Positions 19,795 through 30,058 of a DNA stretch of 64,000 nt are shown here, one piece after another (within the stretch, counting starts at the first letter, position 1; each line of letters begins with the position of its first letter). The notes beneath the pieces are model-generated. The model was not told the origin of the DNA. It saw nothing but the letters and a program-made list of their open reading frames with translations, and ran no database searches. The position numbers and the translations under genes are program-made. The stretch is from the NCBI GenBank assembly GCA_958295645.1, contig OY282361.1, positions 1,516,501 to 1,580,500 of the forward strand. Reading direction: 5' to 3'. The DNA comes from Longimicrobiales bacterium (GTDB lineage Bacteria; Gemmatimonadota; Gemmatimonadetes; Longimicrobiales; Gaopeijiaceae).

Positions 19795-21696
19795 ATGTGC
19801 GGCATCGTGGCGGTCGTCTCGCGAAACGGCCCGGTTGCGCCGGACGCCCTTGCGCGCGCCGTCGCCGCCCTGCGACACAGGGGGCCGGACGGCGAGCGGA
19901 CGTGGATGTCCCCGTCGGGCCGAGCGGGACTGGGCCACGCCCGCCTGGCGATCAACGACCCGGAGGGCGCGCAGCCCATCGCCAGCGAGGACGAGCACCT
20001 GCGCATCGCCGTCAACGGCGAGTTCTACGGCTTCGAGGAGGCTCGGGCGTCGCTGGAGCGGCGCGGCCACCGCTTCCGCACCCGGTCGGACAGCGAGATC
20101 GCGCTCCACCTCTACGAGGACTTGGGCGCGGCGTGCCTGGATCGTCTGCGCGGCCAGTTCGCCTTCGTGCTGTGGAACGAGGCGACGGGCGAGCTGTTCG
20201 CCGCGCGGGACCGGTTCGGGCTCAAGCCGCTGTTCTACTGCCAGCACGGCGGGGCTCTGTACTTGGCTTCCGAGGCGAAGGCGCTGTTCGCGGCCGGCGT
20301 GCCTCCAGCCTGGGACCACCGCGCCGCGTACCACGCGCTTCATGCCTGTCCGGACGAGCGGCTCTCGTTGTTCGCGGGGATTCGGCAGGTGCCGCCGGGG
20401 CGCTTCCTGACGGCTTCGGACGGGGGCGTCCGCTTGACCCGTTACTGGGACTTGCCGCCCGCCCCGCGTGCCGTCCGCCGCGCCCAGCCCGACGCGGAGA
20501 TGGCCGCGGCCGAAGTCCGCTCGCTGGTCGAGGACGCGGTGCGGCAGCGTCTGGCAGCCGACGTTCCGGTGGGATGCCTGCTGAGCGGAGGACTGGACTC
20601 GTCGTCAGTTCTGGGCGTGGCCGCCGCATCCAGCGACGAGCCGATCGCCGCCTTCACCGTCGGGTTCGAGGACCGCGCCTACGACGAGAGCGCGCCCGCT
20701 CGCGAAATGGCAGCAGCGGCAGGGGCGGCCCACCATGTCGTCTCGCTTCGGGACGCCGACCTGGCGGACCACTTCGCGGAGGCCGTCTGGCACGCCGAGA
20801 CGCTCCAGTACAATGCTCACGGCGTGGCGCGCTTTCTGCTGGCCCGTCGCGTGCGCGAAGCCGGTTGGAAGTCGGTGCTCGCGGGCGAGGGCGCCGACGA
20901 GGCCTTCTTCGGCTACGAGTTCCTGCGGGCGGCCGCCCGCGCCCGCTCGGGTTCGCGAACCGGCATGTGGTTGCGGCTGCTGCCCCGGCTCCTGCGGGCT
21001 CTGAGCCGCCGTCGCCCCGGGCTGGCCCAAGTCTCGCCGTGGCTTTCCCGGATCGCGGCGGTCATGGGCGCGGGACCGGGCTTGTTCTCCCGGCTCGCGC
21101 ACGGGCTGGATCACCTGCGCTCTCTGTGCGCGCCCGGGTTCCTCGGGGAATTCGAGGGCTACGACCTCTACAGCGCGTTCTACCGTCGCTGCGACCGCGA
21201 GGCCGGCCTGTCCAAGCGCGAGCCCGCTCGCCGACTGCTCTATCTGTGGCTCCATTCCATCTTCCCCAACTACCACTTGGCCGCCGACCGGCTCGACATG
21301 GCGCACGGAGTGGAAGTGCGCCTCCCCTTCCTCGACCACGTCCTGTTCGAGCACGCCAACGCCCTCCCGCTGGCCTCCCTCGCCGGCGCAGAGACGGACA
21401 AGCAGCTGCTCCGAGAGGCCATGCGCCCCTACCTCCCCGCTACGGTCCTGTCTCGCCCCAAGCGCCCCTTCTGGGCGCCGCCCGCGGCGGGATCGGCGGG
21501 AACGCCGCTGCACAGCTTCGTCCAGGACACGCTGCGAAGTTCCGCGTTCGGCGCGGCCCCGTTCTTCCGTCCGAAGGCCGTCTACCGCTTGCTCGACCGC
21601 ATCCCCGCGCTGGCCCCGGAGCAACGCCCGGCCGCGGACTCGCTGCTGCTCATGCTGGCGTCGGTCGGCGTGTTGCAAGAGCGGTACCGGCCGTAG
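19795..21696 (+). CDS. asnB: Asparagine synthase (glutamine-hydrolysing)
   Basis: A 633-residue two-domain enzyme. The N-terminal glutaminase begins MCGIVAVVS, giving the essential Cys2 after Met removal, with RHRGPDGE and AVNGEFYG. The C-terminal synthetase carries the ATP pyrophosphatase loop LLSGGLDSSSVLG and the GEGADEAFFGY motif, followed by DRLDMAHGVEVRLPFLDH. It makes an amide on aspartate or, in some paralogues, on another carboxylate of a modified peptide or sugar. Complete and probably active. Its tight pairing with an HTTM gene leaves open a specialised role beyond housekeeping asparagine supply. Confidence 0.92.
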   Translation: MCGIVAVVSRNGPVAPDALARAVAALRHRGPDGERTWMSPSGRAGLGHARLAINDPEGAQPIASEDEHLRIAVNGEFYGFEEARASLERRGHRFRTRSDSEIALHLYEDLGAACLDRLRGQFAFVLWNEATGELFAARDRFGLKPLFYCQHGGALYLASEAKALFAAGVPPAWDHRAAYHALHACPDERLSLFAGIRQVPPGRFLTASDGGVRLTRYWDLPPAPRAVRRAQPDAEMAAAEVRSLVEDAVRQRLAADVPVGCLLSGGLDSSSVLGVAAASSDEPIAAFTVGFEDRAYDESAPAREMAAAAGAAHHVVSLRDADLADHFAEAVWHAETLQYNAHGVARFLLARRVREAGWKSVLAGEGADEAFFGYEFLRAAARARSGSRTGMWLRLLPRLLRALSRRRPGLAQVSPWLSRIAAVMGAGPGLFSRLAHGLDHLRSLCAPGFLGEFEGYDLYSAFYRRCDREAGLSKREPARRLLYLWLHSIFPNYHLAADRLDMAHGVEVRLPFLDHVLFEHANALPLASLAGAETDKQLLREAMRPYLPATVLSRPKRPFWAPPAAGSAGTPLHSFVQDTLRSSAFGAAPFFRPKAVYRLLDRIPALAPEQRPAADSLLLMLASVGVLQERYRP

Positions 21697-21738
21697 GGCA
21701 AATTGCCCCACCGGTGCGCTCCTGCGGAGTTGACTCCC

Positions 21739-22555
21739 ATGCGGTTCTTCAACACAACCGGCCCGGTCGTGGCGGCGGATCACTATCGCATTCCGCCTCT
21801 GGAGCGCTGGGACTTGGCCGAAGTCCGCAGGCTCGTCGGCGAGAAGCGGTACTTCGTCCTTCACGCGCCGCGCCAGACGGGCAAGACGTCCGTGCTGCTG
21901 GCGCTCCGGGATATGCTCAACGCGGAAGACGACCTTCGTTGCGTCTACGCCAACGTCGAGGCTGCGCAGGCGGCGCGCGAGGATGCGACCCAGGCCGTGC
22001 GAACCGTGCTGAGCGAACTAGCGCGGCGGGCGCGCATCGACTTGGGCGACGAGTACCTCGACGACGTTTGGCCGGGCATCTTGGCCAAGCATGGCGCCAA
22101 CGCCGCCATAAGCGAGACGTTGACGCGCTGGAGCTTGGTCGACCCGAAGCCGCTGGTGCTGCTGGGTGGAGCGGTTCCAGTACAAGGAGGCGGGACCGCA
22201 GTTGCTGTTGCAGGCGTTCCTGCAGCGGATCGTCAACAGCGGGGGCCGCATCGAGCGCGAGTACGGTTTGGGGCGTGGGCGGACGGACCTGCTGGTGGTG
22301 TGGCCGCAGGACGACGGCAACGGGCAGAGACCGGACGCATCGCAGAAGTTCGTGGTGGAATGCAAGGTGCTGCACAAGGGACTCGATCGCACGGTGGGAG
22401 TGGAGCAGACTGTGGCTTACATGGACCGCTGTGGCGCGGAAGCGGGGCACTTGGTGGTGTTCGACCGCCGAGAGGGGCGCAGTTGGGACGAGAAGCTGTT
22501 CCGGTTGCGCCGGAAATCCGCGAAGGGCGACGAGATCGAAGTCTGGGGGATGTAA
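21739..22555 (+). pseudogene. AAA ATPase/PD-(D/E)XK nuclease, internally deleted copy
   Basis: The first 142 codons (RFFNTTGPVVAADHY, Walker A APRQTGKTS) match the intact gene at 24986-26662 without indels. After KPLVLL the sequence jumps straight to the C-terminal ERFQYKEAGPQLLLQAFLQ region, losing the equivalent of 776 nt, including Walker B and the whole middle. Since 776 is not a multiple of three, the C-terminal nuclease part (GRTDLLVVWPQ, FVVECKVLHKG, DEIEVWGM) is out of frame. The junction shows about 2 nt of shared sequence. Some 45 bp upstream of the ATG also match the intact copy. Confidence 0.9.
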
Positions 22556-22582
22556 CGCGTCCCGCCGGACGCGGGGTCGTGC

Positions 22583-23797
22583 TTAGCGCCGGATTCCGAA
22601 CCGCGCCACGTAGGGCGCGAGGTCGTCGCCGATGCCGGCCAGGAGGAGATACCTGGTCGTGGCATAGCCGGGCATGGAACCCAGCAACTCCGTCTTCACG
22701 GGTTCCGGCAGCGTCGCCCGGCCCAGGTATTCGCCCTTCGGCCCGAAGGCATCGACGACCGACCCGCGCTGAACGGCCTCGGTCTCGGGCACGACATACA
22801 AGGTTCCCGCGCCGTCGGCGAAGAGAGCTTGAAGGATCGGCTTGCTTTCCGGAAGGCCGGACACGCGATCGTCGACGTCGCGACTGTTGGCCAACTGCTG
22901 GCGCACGGCGTCGACATCGGCCTCCGAGACCGGAGCTGGGGCTTCGTCCAGCGAGACCGCCATGAGCGTGTCGCCCTCCAGCGATCTCTTGTAAATGCGG
23001 TATTCGCGGGAGTGGCCGAACCAAATGCTTCGCCCGTCTTCCAAGGCAGACAACAAGACGCCGGCGTAGAAGTTCCGGTAAGTCGGCCTGCCTCCGATCT
23101 GCACCATCTCCGCCACGTAGTCGAGCGGAGGAAACGAGTCGCTGCGCTCGGACGACGGGCCGCCCTCCGACGACGAATCGCCGTCCTCGGCATCAGCGCG
23201 GACAAGGACTGGAAACAGCTGCGTCTCGGCGGGGAGGCCGCCACGTCTTCGATTGGGAAACCAGAGCCTCCAGTCCGTGTAGTGGCCAGCCGGGCCGACA
23301 GCACGGTCCCAAGCCCCCGTAAACGGGTACCCTTGCCCGCGCCGGGCCAACGCCGTCACGAACGAGCCGTCCGGTTCGAATACCGTGACGCGGGCCGTGG
23401 CCGGATCCGGCACCCAAACCCGGTTGTCGGGGCCGATGCTGACCCCGGAGGCTCTCCACAACTCCCCCGGCCCCTCTCCCTTTCGCCCGATGGCGTGAGA
23501 ATAGGCGCCGCTCGAATCGAAGACGAAGACTTGTTGCGCGAACCGATCCAGCACGTAGATGTTGTCGTTGGCGTCGGCGGCCACCGCTTCGACCACGCCG
23601 AATCCGTCCGGTGGACCGGCGATCCGCAATTCCTCCTCCAACTGCCAGCCGCCGGAACGAGTTCCTCTGGGATCCGCGCCGCAGGCCGCCAATCCGACCT
23701 GGGCGACCAGCCAAGCGGCCGCAGCAACGCTCCGAACTCTCCGACCACCGCCGTCACGACGATCTCGTCGCGCATGGACTGCTTGGCAGGGTCTCAT
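22583..23797 (-). CDS. Six-bladed beta-propeller lipoprotein
   Basis: A 404-residue exported protein. A hydrophobic N-terminal segment ends in a lipobox (GLAAC), so it is likely lipid-anchored. NHL-like blades are seen: AVAADANDNIYVLDRFAQQV, DSSGAYSHAIGRKGEGPGEL, VSIGPDNRVWVPDPATARV and a last blade near YVVPETEAVQRGSVVDAF. The phrase GRKGEGPGEL is typical of the 6-bladed propeller family abundant in Gemmatimonadota and Bacteroidota. Role unknown; such proteins usually bind ligands or partners at the cell surface. Its ATG overlaps the stop of the upstream RDD gene (ATGA). Confidence 0.82.
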   Translation of the reverse strand: MRPCQAVHARRDRRDGGGRRVRSVAAAAWLVAQVGLAACGADPRGTRSGGWQLEEELRIAGPPDGFGVVEAVAADANDNIYVLDRFAQQVFVFDSSGAYSHAIGRKGEGPGELWRASGVSIGPDNRVWVPDPATARVTVFEPDGSFVTALARRGQGYPFTGAWDRAVGPAGHYTDWRLWFPNRRRGGLPAETQLFPVLVRADAEDGDSSSEGGPSSERSDSFPPLDYVAEMVQIGGRPTYRNFYAGVLLSALEDGRSIWFGHSREYRIYKRSLEGDTLMAVSLDEAPAPVSEADVDAVRQQLANSRDVDDRVSGLPESKPILQALFADGAGTLYVVPETEAVQRGSVVDAFGPKGEYLGRATLPEPVKTELLGSMPGYATTRYLLLAGIGDDLAPYVARFGIRR

Positions 23798-24702
23798 TGG
23801 GGTTGCTCCGGTTTGGCGGACGGGCGAGTTCGATCATAAGCGGGTCGGTTCTCCTTGACAACGACGGTCTCGGCAATCTTGTCGTGGATGGCCTGCCGGT
23901 TGGGATCCCACCAAACCCGCGCGAATCCGACGAGGCCCGTGGCGAAGCCCGCCGCGTAGCCGCCGGCTCTTTCGAAGGCCAGAAGCAGTCCGAGGGGCTC
24001 GCCGTCGAGCCTGGCGACCCGCAAGCGCAGCAACCGCTTGCCGGGCGTCCGGCCGTTCCAGAAGGCGGTGAACAGCGTGAGGTAGACCGTGCCCCAACCG
24101 AATATCAGCCCAGCCTCGTCCGCGATGTCCCGAATCCACGCAAAGGCCGTCGAGGGCTGCTCGGGCTCCGTTTCGCCAAGGTTCGCCGTATCGGAGGCGG
24201 CCGCCTGCGCCAAGCTGTCGACAAACCTCGCCATCTCTCGGATTCCCACCTCTTGAGGCTCTCCGGCGGCCACGCCGTCCCGCATGGCGTCCGCCGCAAC
24301 GCTGTCGGGCGTGGAGGCTCTCTCCGGCCCCAGGACTCCGGCCCTCCAAAGCGCCGGGACAAAGGTCACGAACACCGTGGCAGCCACGAGCAACGCACCG
24401 CCGCATCCCACGGCCGTGCGCCGCAAGCGTCCCGCATCCGGACGGCGCGCCAACACGAGGAACAGCATCAGCACCGCTCCGCCCAGCAGCAGCCTCCAAC
24501 TGAGCGCCTCCAGGAGACCCACGAGCATCAAGTCCAAGAAGAGGGCGGTCAGCCTCCGCCACGGAGCGGCGAGAGGCGTCCCCAGCAAGACCGGGGAGAC
24601 GGAAAACGCGTCGGGAGTGACGATGGACTTGGGGTCGCGCGGCCTGGGGTTGCGAGCGCTGGCGTCGCGTGGCGCCCGGTCCGGCGGCGGGGAAGCGGAC
24701 AT
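23794..24702 (-). CDS. RDD-family membrane protein
   Basis: About 302 residues from the ATG at 24702; an in-frame ATG at 24765 would add 21 residues. The RDD features are APWRRLTALFLDLMLVG (Arg then Asp-rich first span) and the C-terminal pair WNGRTPGKRLLRLRVARLDG and WWDPNRQAIHDKIAETVVV. Unusually, about 110 residues containing a further hydrophobic pair and a soluble stretch separate the first spans from the last. RDD proteins are integral membrane proteins of uncertain function, some linked to ion transport. It is translationally coupled to the propeller lipoprotein, and both lie between the two AAA/nuclease copies. Confidence 0.8.
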   Translation of the reverse strand: MSASPPPDRAPRDASARNPRPRDPKSIVTPDAFSVSPVLLGTPLAAPWRRLTALFLDLMLVGLLEALSWRLLLGGAVLMLFLVLARRPDAGRLRRTAVGCGGALLVAATVFVTFVPALWRAGVLGPERASTPDSVAADAMRDGVAAGEPQEVGIREMARFVDSLAQAAASDTANLGETEPEQPSTAFAWIRDIADEAGLIFGWGTVYLTLFTAFWNGRTPGKRLLRLRVARLDGEPLGLLLAFERAGGYAAGFATGLVGFARVWWDPNRQAIHDKIAETVVVKENRPAYDRTRPSAKPEQPQ

Positions 24703-24985
24703 GTCGTGCGATTGTGAGTCGTGCGAGGCGAGGCTAGGAGAACTCTCGTCCCCGGACGGCGTCATCCACCAACCCTGGCACGGGCGCCTGAGAACGCCTG
24801 GGCGAAGGCGTAGCCCCGCAACGTGGCACCCCGGAAGACGCTGGGCGTCCGGATGCCGTTTTTCTGGAAGCGCTTGCGCATCCGCCATAGATTGGGCCGC
24901 CGCCGCCGGCTCTGCAACTCGCGGCCGCCGAACGCGCAAGCGCCTCGAAATTGCCGCGCCAGTTCCCTCGTGCGAAGTTGGCTCC

Positions 24986-26662
24986 ATGCGCTTCTTCAAC
25001 ACGACCGGCCCGGTGGTCGCTGCGGATCACTACCAAGTTGCGCCTCTCGAGCGCTGGGACTTGGCCGAAGTCCGCAGGCTGATCGGCGAGAAGCGCTACT
25101 TCGTCCTGCACGCGCCGCGCCAGACGGGCAAGACCTCCGCGCTGCTGGCCCTTCGCGATCTCTTGAACGCGGAGGGCGGCCACCATTGCGTCTACGTCAA
25201 CGTCGAGGGCGCGCAGGCGGCACGGGAGGACGTGGGCCGGGCGGTGCGCACCGTGCTGGCCGAAACAGCGTCCCGCGCAGGCGACGCTTGGGGTGACGAG
25301 CACCTGGAGGAGATCTGGCCGGACGTCTTGGCGCGGCGTGGCCCGGACAGCGCGTTGCGCGAGGGGCTGACCCGCTGGGCGCGGGCCGTCGCGAAGCCGC
25401 TGGTGCTTCTGATCGACGAGATCGACGCTCTGGTGGGCGACTCGTTGTTGTCGGTGCTGCGGCAGCTGCGGGCGGGCTACGACATGCGGCCTGCGGGCTT
25501 CCCGCAGAGCGTGGTCCTGTGCGGGGTGCGCGACGTGCGAGACTACCGCATCCATTCGGGCTCGGCGAACACGATGGTGGCGGGCGGCAGCGCGTTCAAC
25601 GTGAAGGCCGCGTCGCTGCGGCTGGGCGACTTCTCCGAGGAGGACGTGCGGGCGTTGCTGGGCCAGCACACGGCGGAGACGGGCCAGGCGTTCGCGGACG
25701 AGGCGCTGGAGATGGTGTGGAACCGCACGCGAGGCCAGCCGTGGCTGGTCAACGCGCTGGCGTACGAGACCTGCTTTCGGGGAGAGGGTGCGGCGGACCG
25801 GTCGCGCGTGGTCGGGGAGGACGACGTTCTGGCGGCCCAAGAGGCCTTGATCCTGCGGCGCGAGACGCATCTGGACCAGTTGGCGGACAAGTTGCGGGAG
25901 GAGAGGGTGCGGCGGGTCGTGGAGCCGCTTCTGGCGGGTGCGGACGACGCGGAGTTCTCGGAGCGCGACGTCGAGTATGCGCGCGACTTGGGGCTGGTGG
26001 CGTGGAACCGGCCAGTGCGGATCGCCAATCCGATCTACGCGGAGGTGGTGCCGAGGGAGCTCACGTGGCTGGCGCAGGAGCACATGGCCGACGATCCGGC
26101 GTGGTACGTGGACGTTGCCGGCGGCCTGGACCTGCCGAAGCTGCTGGCGGGGTTCCAGGAGTTCTTCCGGGCACACTCGGAGCATTGGGTGGAGCGGTTC
26201 CAGTACAAGGAGGCGGGACCGCAGCTGCTGTTGCAGGCGTTCCTGCAGCGGATCGTGAACAGCGGGGGGCGCATCGAGCGCGAGTACGGGCTGGGCCGGG
26301 GCCGCACGGACCTGCTGGTGGCCTGGCCGCAGGACGGTAGCGGAGGGCGGCAGAGGAGGCGGCCCGGCGGGCGGGCGCAGAACGGTGGCGGCGAGCTGCC
26401 GGGTGGGCGGCCCGGTGGGAGCGCCCAGGGCCACGGGGGCTCGCAGAAGTTCGTGGTGGAGTGCAAGGTGCTGCACAAGGGGTTGGAGCGCACGGTGGCC
26501 GAAGGCGTGGAGCAGACGGCGGCGTACATGGATCGTTGCGGCGCGGAGGCGGGGCACTTGGTGGTGTTCGACCGCCGGGAGGGCCGGAGTTGGGACGAGA
26601 AGGTGTTTCGGTTCGGCCGCACTGCCGAGAGCGGCGCCGAGATCGAAGTCTGGGGCATGTAG
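24986..26662 (+). CDS. AAA ATPase fused to PD-(D/E)XK nuclease domain
   Basis: A 558-residue intact protein. Walker A is APRQTGKT at residues 43-50, Walker B LVLLIDEID with Asp144-Glu145, and a winged-helix-like region follows GLVAWNRPVRIANPIY. The C-terminal third has a PD-(D/E)XK nuclease core: GRTDLLV with Asp442, then FVVECKVLHKG with Glu492 and Lys494. Between Asp442 and Glu492 is a Gly/Arg-rich insert of about 30 residues, much longer than in the sister copy. The family (AAA_35/AAA-like ATPases with a C-terminal nuclease) is common in multiple copies in some bacteria; its biological role is not established and a defence or mobile role is plausible. The start at 24986 matches the sister gene. 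Confidence 0.88.
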   Translation: MRFFNTTGPVVAADHYQVAPLERWDLAEVRRLIGEKRYFVLHAPRQTGKTSALLALRDLLNAEGGHHCVYVNVEGAQAAREDVGRAVRTVLAETASRAGDAWGDEHLEEIWPDVLARRGPDSALREGLTRWARAVAKPLVLLIDEIDALVGDSLLSVLRQLRAGYDMRPAGFPQSVVLCGVRDVRDYRIHSGSANTMVAGGSAFNVKAASLRLGDFSEEDVRALLGQHTAETGQAFADEALEMVWNRTRGQPWLVNALAYETCFRGEGAADRSRVVGEDDVLAAQEALILRRETHLDQLADKLREERVRRVVEPLLAGADDAEFSERDVEYARDLGLVAWNRPVRIANPIYAEVVPRELTWLAQEHMADDPAWYVDVAGGLDLPKLLAGFQEFFRAHSEHWVERFQYKEAGPQLLLQAFLQRIVNSGGRIEREYGLGRGRTDLLVAWPQDGSGGRQRRRPGGRAQNGGGELPGGRPGGSAQGHGGSQKFVVECKVLHKGLERTVAEGVEQTAAYMDRCGAEAGHLVVFDRREGRSWDEKVFRFGRTAESGAEIEVWGM

Positions 26663-26710: not shown

Positions 26711-29700
26711 TTGACGAGAGACGGCGACTGGGCGGCGGCGCGGGCGCGCGACTTGTTCGGCGGGGCCCCCCGGCGGTTGCCGGGCGAGTTGGACTTCAAC
26801 TTCCGCGTGGAAGGGCCGTGCGGCCCGGCGGTCTTGAAGCTTGCACCGGCCGGGCGACGGCCCGCGTTCGCACTCTTGGCGGCGTGCCTGGAACACCTGC
26901 GCGGCGCGGCGCTGCGGGCGCGAGTGCCGGCTCTCGTTTCCATCGACGCTCTCGCAGGGGGCCCGCGGGACGCTTCGGGCCCCGAAGTCGGCACCTTGAG
27001 CAACCCCGGCGGCGCTCCTCCCCGCATATCCGGCGACGCCCCGTGGGTTGCGCTGGCTGCCACGTTCGTGGAAGGCGAGACGCTGGCCGTCGCGCGCCCG
27101 CGTCCCATGAGCGTCCTCGAAGAGCTGGGCGCTCTCCTTGCTCAGCTCCAAGCCGCGCTGGACGACTTCGAGCACCCCAGTCTGGACCGCGACTTCCCCT
27201 GGCGCCTGGAATCGGCGCCCGCCCTCGTCCGGGAACGTCTGCGCGAACTCGATCCCCCTCTCGCCAAGGTCGTCGCCGAAACCGCGGACCGGGCCGCCCG
27301 CCGCCTCGATGCGGTTGCGGATCAGCTTCCCGCCGGCATCGTCCACAACGACGCCAACGACCACAACGTGATCGTCGCCGCCTCGCCGGAAGGGCTCCGC
27401 CTCGCCGGCCTGATCGACTTCGGCGACCTGGCGCGCGGCTGGAGGGTCGCCGACCCCGCGATAGCCGCCGCCTACGCCATGATGGACTTGGCCGACCCCC
27501 TCGAAGCGGCCTGCGCCGTCGCGGGCGGCTACGCGTCGGTCGCTTCCCTCTCCGACGCGGAGTGCCGGGCGTTCCTGCCCCTGGCCGCGCTCCGGCTGTG
27601 CCTGTCGGTCTGCATTCAGGCCCGCCAGATGCGCGAGCAACCCGGCAACGAGTACTTGGCGGTCAGCCAGCGGCCCGCCCGCAAGCTGCTTCGGCGGCTC
27701 GCGGAGTCCGACTGGCGCCTGGCCGAATTCAGAGTCCGCGACGCCTGCGGCCTCGTCCCCAATCCCAGCGCGAACGCCGTCGTTTCCTGGATGAGGGAAG
27801 CCGCACCCCGATCCCCCGTCCTGCCCCGCGACCGCCTCGCCACGCCGACCGTCCTCGACCTGTCCGTCGCGAGCCTGGACCTGCCGCATCCCGAGGATCT
27901 CGCCCGGGAAGGCGCCTTGGAGGCATGGATCGCAGAAGAAATGGCCGCCTGCGGCGCCACCGCCGGAGTGGGTCGCTACGGCGAGCCCCGGCTGCTCTAC
28001 GACGCCCCTTCGTTCGCGACCGAAGGCAACGACGGCCCCGGCGCGCGCACCGTGCACATGGGGCTCGACTTGTTCGCCCCTCCGGGCACGCCTGTCCGTT
28101 CGCCGCTGCCCGGCACGGTGGTCTCGGTGGCCGACAACGCCGGGCGGCTCGACTACGGCCCCACCGTGGTGGTGCGCCACGCGACCGGTTGCGGAACCCT
28201 CTTCCACACGCTGTACGGGCACTTGAGCGCGGCCTCCCTGGCGAAGCGCTCCCCCGGCGAGAAGGTACGCGCGGGCGGCGTGCTGGGCTGGCTGGGAACG
28301 CCGAAGACGAACGGCGGCTGGCCTCCGCACCTGCACTTCCAGGTGATCGCGCTGGACTCGCTCGAGGACGAGCGGCGCGGCGCCGACGAGCGGGCGGGCG
28401 ACACGTGCGCCGCCGACAGGCCGACGGACGACGAGCGGGCGGGCGACACGCGCGCCGACGACAGCCGTCTGGACGACGAGCGAGCAGGCGACGGCGACTT
28501 CCCCGGAGTCGTGGAGGCCCGGCTCCGGCGCGTTTGGGAGTCGGTGCTGCCCGATCCCGCGCCGCTCGCCGGGCTGCCTTCGCCTTTCGCGGAATCGTTG
28601 CGGCCCGTGCCCGCTCCCGGCGAGGCGGCCGCCCGGATCAAGGCAGGCCGCGACCGTCGTTTGGCTCCATCCCTCGGTCTCTCGTACGACCGCCCCTTGC
28701 ACGTCGTCCGCGGCCTCGCGCAACACCTGTTCGACGCTTCCGGGCGGCGTTATCTGGACGTCGTGAACAACGTGGCGCACGTCGGGCACGCCAACCGGCG
28801 GGTCGCCCGCGCCATCGCACGCCAGTCCCGCGTGCTCAACACCAACACCCGCTACCTGCACGAGGAGATCGTGGCGCTCTCGGAGGAACTCGCGGCCCGC
28901 TTCCCGCCCGGACTGGACGTGGTCTTCCTGGTCTGTTCCGGGAGCGAGGCCAACGAGCTGGCGCTGCGCTTGGCCCGCCACTACACGCGACGCGAGGGCG
29001 TGGTCGTGCTGGAGGGAGCCTACCACGGCAACACTGGAGGGCTCGTCGAGATCAGCCCCTACAAGTTCGACGGCCCCGGCGGCGGCGGACGAAGCGCGCG
29101 CGTGGCGGTGGCGCCGATGCCCGATCCGTACCGGGGACTGCACCGGCGCACCGAGGGCCTAGGCGACGCGGAGCTGGCCCGGTCGTACGCGGCAGGGGTC
29201 CGAGAAGCCGCCGAGCGCTTGAGCGGCGCAGGCGGGACCGCCCGGGGCCGGAGCCGCGCGGGCGTGGACGTGGGCGGCACAAGCCGCGGCAGTGCGGGCG
29301 CGGCTCGCGAGGACGCGGACAACGCAGAGGTAGGCGTGGCCGCGTTCGTCGCCGAAGCCATGCTGGGATGCGGCGGCCAAGTCGAGCCCCCGGCGGGATA
29401 TCTCCGGGCCGCCTTCGAACATGTGCGCCGGGTCGGCGGACTCTGCATCGCAGACGAAGTGCAGACCGGCTTCGGGCGCGTCGGAGACGCCTTCTGGGCC
29501 TTCGAGCTCCAAGAGGCGACGCCGGACATCGTCACGCTGGGCAAGCCCATGGGGAACGGCCATCCCGTCGGCGCCGTCGTGACGACCCGCGAGATCGCCG
29601 ACGCCTTCGCCAACGGCATGGAGTACTTCAACACGTTCGGCGGCAACCCCGTGGCCTGCGTGGCGGCGCGGGCGGCGCTGGCCGAAGTCCGCGACCGGGG

Positions 29701-30058
29701 GCTGCAGGAGCACGCCAAGCAGGTCGGCGATTTCTTCCTGGCGCAGCTCCGGGAACTGGAGAGCCCGGCCGTGGGCGACGTGCGGGGCCGGGGACTGTTC
29801 CTGGGCGTCGAGCTGGTGCGGAGCCGCGAGGGACGCGAGCCCTTCCCCAAGGCCTGCCGCTACGTGGTGAACCGGATGCGCGACCGCGGCATCCTCATGA
29901 GCACCGACGGCCCCGACGCCAACGTGCTCAAGATCAAGCCGCCCATGGTGTTCGAGCGCTCCGACGCCGCCCGCGTCGTCGAGGAGCTGGACGCGATCCT
30001 GCAAGAGACGCCGGTCTTGGCCAAACCGAGCCGACCGATTCGGGCATCTGCAGGCTGA
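26711..30058 (+). CDS. Three-domain fusion: APH kinase, M23 peptidase, class III aminotransferase
   Basis: An 1115-residue protein from a TTG start at 26711. Residues about 1-340 are an aminoglycoside-phosphotransferase-like kinase with HNDANDHN (His212, Asp214) and LIDFGD (Asp236). Residues about 430-560 are a LytM/M23 fold with all zinc ligands, His449-x3-Asp453 and His540-x-His542. Residues about 640-1115 are a class III PLP aminotransferase with [25 protein letters not shown] and Lys945 in LGKPMGNG. The same order occurs in a known family related to ethanolamine-phosphate phospho-lyase (AGXT2L1), so phosphorylation followed by PLP chemistry on an amino-alcohol is plausible. Acidic DERAGD repeats (about residues 555-595) and a Gly/Arg insert (about 840-870) are low-complexity additions. 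Confidence 0.88.

Follow-up and report, generated by a model that had tools for sequence, protein, structure and literature searches.

The DNA considered here, a 64,000-nucleotide stretch of contig OY282361.1 from a Longimicrobiales bacterium (the window; source genome closed, 2.89 Mb), carries two same-strand copies of a gene for an AAA+ ATPase fused to a putative PD-(D/E)XK nuclease, W_L on the left and W_R on the right; between them, the opposite strand encodes an RDD protein and a beta-propeller protein. The nearest known kind is the group of DUF1703 proteins (Pfam AAA-ATPase_like, PF09820, and PDDEXK_9, PF08011), where an N-terminal AAA+ module precedes a C-terminal PD-(D/E)XK nuclease, as it does in W_R. 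In the accessible parts of two accounts, DUF1703 genes are described as expanded in particular lineages, with 25 paralogues in Cardinium cCpun and recombination between paralogues, and as present in two plasmid copies in Simkania, their function being unknown (PMC6387759, PMC1913061). Their Walker A motif is given as RPRRFGKS in the part available of one of these (PMC1913061), and PF09820 is tabulated in defence systems in the accessible part of another source (PMC10952713). The present family differs in its Walker A sequence, HAPRQTGKT in W_R, and in that PF09820 and PF08011 matched only 8 and 5 of 53 members, respectively (E ≤ 0.001); PF08011 was not listed for W_R, and the W_L tail scored 16.7 against a cut-off of 25.5. 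Gene-sized dispersal is absent from the same parts of the two DUF1703 accounts (PMC6387759, PMC1913061), and a literature search of limited reach returned no description of it for such nucleases.

Other known families and elements share single traits with this one. The ATPase half of the predicted W_R model (mean pLDDT 79, pTM 0.51) resembled archaeal AAA+ ATPases, its nearest solved structures being 2qen (PABY2304; Z 13.9 over 298 residues, 5.1 Å) and 2fna (SSO1545; Z 12.8 over 296 residues, 5.1 Å), followed by ORC/Cdc6 (Z about 12) and TnsC (Z 10.8). Both structures presumably belong to ATPase_2 (PF01637), whereas a sequence match to that family was found in only 12 of the 53 members. AAA_35 (PF14516, 'AAA-like domain') matched 49 members at the same threshold, but W_R itself scored 23.9, below the cut-off of 27; AAA_22 and AAA_16 were found in W_R, and AAA_22 matched all 53 members. 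Judged by titles, the literature search found no paper on the PF14516 ('AAA 35') protein family itself. Composite transposons and insertion sequences are similar in having a repeated same-strand gene around other genes and copies at unlinked sites, but here neither a transposase nor repeats, whether terminal inverted or flanking direct ones, could be found. Homing endonuclease genes are small self-contained nuclease units that appear at new sites, each with one cognate site. The present gene, whose product's cleavage activity is putative, likewise turns up at new sites as a small unit, but at many unrelated sites rather than one cognate site, and with an AAA+ module.

The observations below are probably best explained by a nuclease family that spreads as a gene-sized unit, through local duplication and unlinked insertion accompanied by conversion and decay, the window pair representing one duplication. 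Multiple copies, their unlinked sites, homology of gene size, filled and empty sites, arrays and decayed copies are direct observations. Copies would multiply by local, often head-to-tail, duplication, further copies would appear at unlinked sites between host genes, and copies would exchange sequence with one another and decay by deletion; the encoded ATPase-nuclease may open DNA, its own gene then being copied in by repair. In the window, one local duplication would have given W_L and W_R, after which W_L lost 776 nt and its reading frame. The nuclease features of the window are:

21694..21738, plus strand: W_L leader (-45 to -1), 61% identical to the W_R leader, starting at the asnB stop codon
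21739..22555, plus strand: W_L, left nuclease copy, 817 nt, pseudogene with an internal 776-nt deletion and a frameshift
21739..22164, plus strand: W_L part 1, N-terminal AAA part with Walker A, corresponding to W_R residues 1-142
22163..22552, plus strand: W_L part 2, section of the nuclease domain read in a different frame, corresponding to W_R residues 401-558
24941..24985, plus strand: W_R leader (-45 to -1)
24986..26662, plus strand: W_R, right nuclease copy, intact, 558 codons, AAA+ ATPase fused to a predicted PD-(D/E)XK nuclease
26138..26659, plus strand: predicted C-terminal PD-(D/E)XK domain of W_R, residues 385-558 (E433, D442, E492, K494, Q510)
26325..26420, plus strand: W_R linker, two 48-nt repeats, 75% alike, a stretch missing from copies L100 and L101

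Copies, flanks and sites of the nuclease gene

A search for further copies in the genome, proposed in the earlier note, brought the total to five: W_L, W_R, L099 (79% in its search row), L100 and L101. Within the bacterial family, 20 of the 121 genomes, among them the genome of the window, carried the gene at E ≤ 1e-10, and these fell in 4 of the 40 genera. A scan of one genome per species yielded at least 577 pattern matches, at least 566 of them confirmed; the best 80 of the confirmed matches had 48-69% identity and spanned Latescibacterota, Spirochaetia, Acidobacteria, Gammaproteobacteria, Desulfobacterales, Chloroflexi, Bacteroidia, Heliophilum and methanogenic archaea. Fifteen genomes reached through matched loci, and hence selected for containing a match, held 1-28 matches each with fragments counted, and fragmented copies were present in genome G037 too. 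In a tree of 145 distinct copies, within-genome clusters occurred together with mixing: genome labels needed 30 changes, compared with 44 on average for shuffled labels and a minimum of 16. W_R, L099 and L100 formed one clade (support 99), whereas L101 was placed elsewhere, so that the family may have entered this genome on more than one occasion. Phage or viral carriage was rejected, as none of 50,697 phage records held the gene and none of 16 candidate stretches in viral contigs was confirmed. Among 72,556 plasmid records, 14 matched, every one below 60% identity; some cyanobacterial plasmid relatives carry the annotation AAA-like.

In 20 neighbourhoods compared with the window genes, nuclease copies sat among differing host genes. 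The extent of shared DNA was measured on unlinked copies whose genes had 88% identity or more, for which 100 of 431 whole-gene pairs qualified (43 in G121 and 49 in G124, both gammaproteobacterial, and 8 in G123). In G121 and G124, 88 of the 92 pairs shared at most 150 bp beyond the gene on each side, with median shared flanks of 30 and 36 bp upstream and 0 and 3 bp downstream. On the best reading of these alignments, the unit would consist of a short upstream leader and one open reading frame (ORF), ending at or a few bases from the stop codon. The leader could include a promoter; in one gammaproteobacterial subfamily it contains a CATAAT box whose end is six bases upstream of the ATG. A consensus scan found no promoter before W_L or W_R, and across the leaders of 80 representatives the sole features to stand out were CC preceding the ATG and weak A-richness from -12 to -9.

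Filled and empty sites were also found, sites occupied in one species being empty in others of its genus. The L112 site is filled in G018. In all 11 loci fetched from other species, its flanks are separated by -7 to 174 bp and enclose no gene; four further genomes, described below, have other DNA there, and the rest had the site split over contigs or gave one flank only. The L107 site is filled in G022 and G016, while G019 has 103 bp in its place; compared with G019, the 3' junction, where sequence of the groEL side starts again, is no more than about 7 bp from the nuclease stop codon. The sibling species G125 and G126 hold 94%-identical copies at different loci. Head-to-tail arrays are frequent: 13 such neighbour pairs less than 2.6 kb apart were counted on eight closed replicons (0.86 expected), and G126 has three tandem copies with four bases between each. 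At locus L298 of G121, copies 2 and 3 lie on the same strand and enclose three opposite-strand genes of other kinds, an arrangement resembling that of the window.

Repeats of other sorts were seen at some copies. A REP-like dispersed repeat of about 55 bp lies just upstream of L107 (G022:C133, 9043-9101) and recurs at dozens of other sites in genus g3 genomes, and another repeat pair, in inverted orientation, flanks copy L114. The third tandem copy of G126 is 24 codons longer than the second and contains within its ORF a 45-bp repeat (L297, 5395-5441) that is frequent in the sibling genome G125, apparently a dispersed repeat that moved into the coding sequence. One site is shared by G121 (L311) and G124 (L331), where about 185 bp of flank agrees on each side and the nuclease genes differ at the 3' end, which would fit replacement of one copy through conversion.

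The window pair and its product

The earlier note had placed the two nuclease genes at 21739-22555 and 24986-26662 in the same orientation, with a match from about 45 bp before the ATG to the gene end, and this description held. BLASTN aligned W_L and W_R in three tracts of 78% (465 nt), 93% (151 nt) and 84% (226 nt) identity, with bit scores of 380, 224 and 247, as against a maximum of 34.6 bits among 200 codon-shuffled W_R sequences. Homology started at about -45 (61% identity from -45 to -1, against 31% from -60 to -45) and ended at the stop codon, with 37% identity over the following 30 nt. The 776-nt deletion reported for the left copy corresponds to W_R nt 433-1208, and two smaller differences had been missed: a linker within W_R nt 1360-1440, and 6 nt missing near the W_L end. 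The linker stretch would be largely a gain in W_R, because L100, L101 and a G037 copy also lack it. W_L is frameshifted at the deletion junction, having kept Walker A, lost Walker B and retained the nuclease tail in another frame.

Identity between W_L and W_R was uneven, at 90% over nt 1-150, 74% and 68% within nt 150-432, and 85-91% after the deletion, compared with 73-82% for W_R and L099 in the same segments. Pooled, the outer tracts reached 88% and nt 150-432 71% (post hoc p = 1e-8), against 80% and 74% for W_R and L099 (post hoc p = 0.05), a mosaic most simply read as conversion between copies. The possibility raised earlier, that the copies are closer to genes elsewhere than to each other, applied to W_R in one segment: compared with L099, L100 and L101, W_L and W_R were mutually closest in 5 of the 6 segments having at least 50 comparable sites, the exception being nt 300-432 (W_L/W_R 68%, W_R/L099 75%, W_R/G037 copy 78%). 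We infer that W_R and W_L, the dead member of the pair, stem from one local duplication. Their longest identical run is 39 bp, and excision by recombination between them would be possible in principle.

W_R possesses the Walker A motif given above, a Walker B motif (VLLIDEID) and, in its C-terminal part, E433, D442, E492, K494 and Q510, which represent the motifs of the PD-(D/E)XK superfamily (an acidic residue, D, (D/E)xK and Q). Across the 53 members, drawn from many phyla, E433, E492, K494 and Q510 were invariant, as were Walker A residues A43-Q46, G48 and T50, and D442 was conserved in at least 90%. When the C-terminal part was modelled alone (mean pLDDT 80, pTM 0.74), Foldseek gave no match below E 0.001. 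The best VIA rows were mostly PD-(D/E)XK-fold nucleases (McrC 7.3, BamHI 7.0, Can2 6.8; Z at most 7.5), and the predicted helix and strand order fits the core fold, lending modest support to a PD-(D/E)XK fold. A sequence search of the PDB found no match to the nuclease protein, and PADLOC models matched none of three family proteins. The dN/dS ratio was 0.18-0.43 over 15 computed pairs and 0.20-0.26 among intact copies of the window's own genome, pairs whose synonymous divergence is near saturation; these values indicate purifying selection on the family.

Genes around the copies

The remaining features of this part of the window are:

19795..21696, plus strand: asparagine synthase gene (asnB), left neighbour
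22583..23797, minus strand: 6-bladed beta-propeller gene (PF17170), apparent bystander
23794..24759, minus strand: RDD-family gene (PF06271), apparent bystander, overlapping the propeller gene by 4 nt
26711..30058, plus strand: APH-M23-aminotransferase fusion gene, right neighbour, opening a block conserved in relatives

Pfam upheld the identities given in the earlier note to the two enclosed genes, with E 9.5e-18 for RDD and 2.1e-14 for the propeller. Homologues of the RDD gene were found in 58 of the 121 genomes and of the propeller gene in 79 (E ≤ 1e-10). The proposal to look elsewhere for the RDD-propeller pair without nuclease copies did not turn up such a pair: across 14 relative loci fetched around RDD (nine) or propeller (five) matches, there was no nuclease copy, and RDD never adjoined a propeller gene. 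The RDD gene of G037 is not on the same contig as the best propeller genes there. G017, G033 and G027 each have a weak propeller homologue (28-29%) at a distance of about 5-6 kb from RDD, and no nuclease gene accompanies them. The two genes look like host genes that happen to lie between the copies, that is, ordinary bystanders. Three propeller genes, 52-53% identical to that of the window, stand side by side in tandem at L120 (8623-12186, G037:C2).

To the right of W_R, the ORF at 26711-30058 combines APH kinase, M23 peptidase and class-III aminotransferase domains, a gene common to the window and G034. It opens a block, reaching from 26.7 to about 40.8 kb, that G018, G022 and G033 conserve in full or in part and whose first genes are present in G037 too. 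Left of 26.7 kb, no shared DNA was found in the relatives compared (G018, G022, G033, G034 and G037). This comparison places W_R at the edge of synteny, and implies no cause for that edge.

Explanations for the dispersal and their meaning

Several results weigh against spread as a gene-sized unit. In G123, 7 of 8 pairs share longer flanks and one stops within 150 bp, because whole arrays share these flanks. Terminal inverted repeats of the 80 representatives scored 6.91 on average, against 6.80 for shuffled sequences (p = 0.34), with W_R reaching the maximum of the set (10), and flanking direct repeats were found neither for the 80 taken together nor for the window copies. A direct repeat at L301 follows from the tandem arrangement of that copy; the longer ones beside the single copies L306, L312, L316, L336 and L338 start 21-268 bp ahead of the gene and could be dispersed repeats or what is left of arrays. 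Two candidates were tried and rejected, namely DNA-level end signals inside the ORF, as synonymous sites at both ends were not unusually conserved, and insertion beside terminator hairpins, hinted at by W_L and L107 but not seen in the 80 representatives. The L112 site holds 0.8-1.5 kb of other DNA in G016, G019, G021 and G022, without a nuclease match there, and at the L107 site 7 of the 8 relatives fetched carry other DNA, 399-1309 bp long. Both G125 and G126 regions carry other rearrangements as well. The comparisons of filled and empty sites gave no exact base-level junction, the empty-site species being about 5-20% diverged, and the mosaic segments of W_L and W_R were picked after the data were seen. 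Finally, clustering at 2.6-20 kb was not significant (8 neighbours against 4.1 expected, p = 0.06).

As non-tandem clustering is not significant, the window pair may have arisen through separate insertions of the leader and ORF, 3.2 kb apart, instead of one local duplication. This is conceivable, if rather doubtful: unlinked copies each have their own leader and ORF, the W_L leader begins at the asnB stop codon and W_R lies 48 bp before the conserved block, but the two are the closest pair in most segments and tandem pairs are common in the family. The earlier note had allowed for either duplication of the nuclease gene or insertion of a composite element; the former is supported by the segment comparison. 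A composite mobile element, with nuclease copies as ends and the RDD-propeller pair as cargo, would fit the shared orientation and the two genes in between, but is very improbable, since both supposed cargo genes are far commoner than the nuclease gene, none of the 14 fetched loci joins either of them with a nuclease copy, no terminal repeats were found for the representatives or the window copies, the nuclease gene is no transposase, and the copies at L298 enclose other genes. Since they do, the window arrangement looks like a leftover of local copying, whatever genes are near.

A serious rival is ordinary paralogue expansion: a gene useful to the host, for instance a nuclease for repair or defence, would have spread through horizontal transfer and general recombination and have no mobility of its own. 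Purifying selection and invariant active-site residues agree with it, and the combination of AAA+ and PD-(D/E)XK modules would resemble restriction machines such as McrBC in its predicted fold. It is nonetheless considered rather unlikely, because the end of homology near the gene ends in 88 of 92 unlinked pairs is unexpected under general recombination, and PADLOC recognised none of the three proteins. Spread as a gene-sized unit is preferred, and the protein may drive the copying, the grounds for this being the nuclease itself and the lack of other machinery at the unit ends. In its boldest form, this would be a minimal selfish element of one gene and a leader of a few tens of bases, lacking transposase and end repeats, whose AAA+ ATPase-nuclease opens chromosomal DNA and has its own gene copied into the break, and which spreads in this way across bacteria and archaea; such an element is a speculative and quite improbable proposal.

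AAA+/PD-(D/E)XK genes of unknown function occur in large numbers across bacteria and archaea. If gene-sized movement is true, no mobile element would be required to account for the RDD and propeller genes of the window, expansion of the family would be explained without benefit to the host, and whether the protein drives its own copying would become directly testable.

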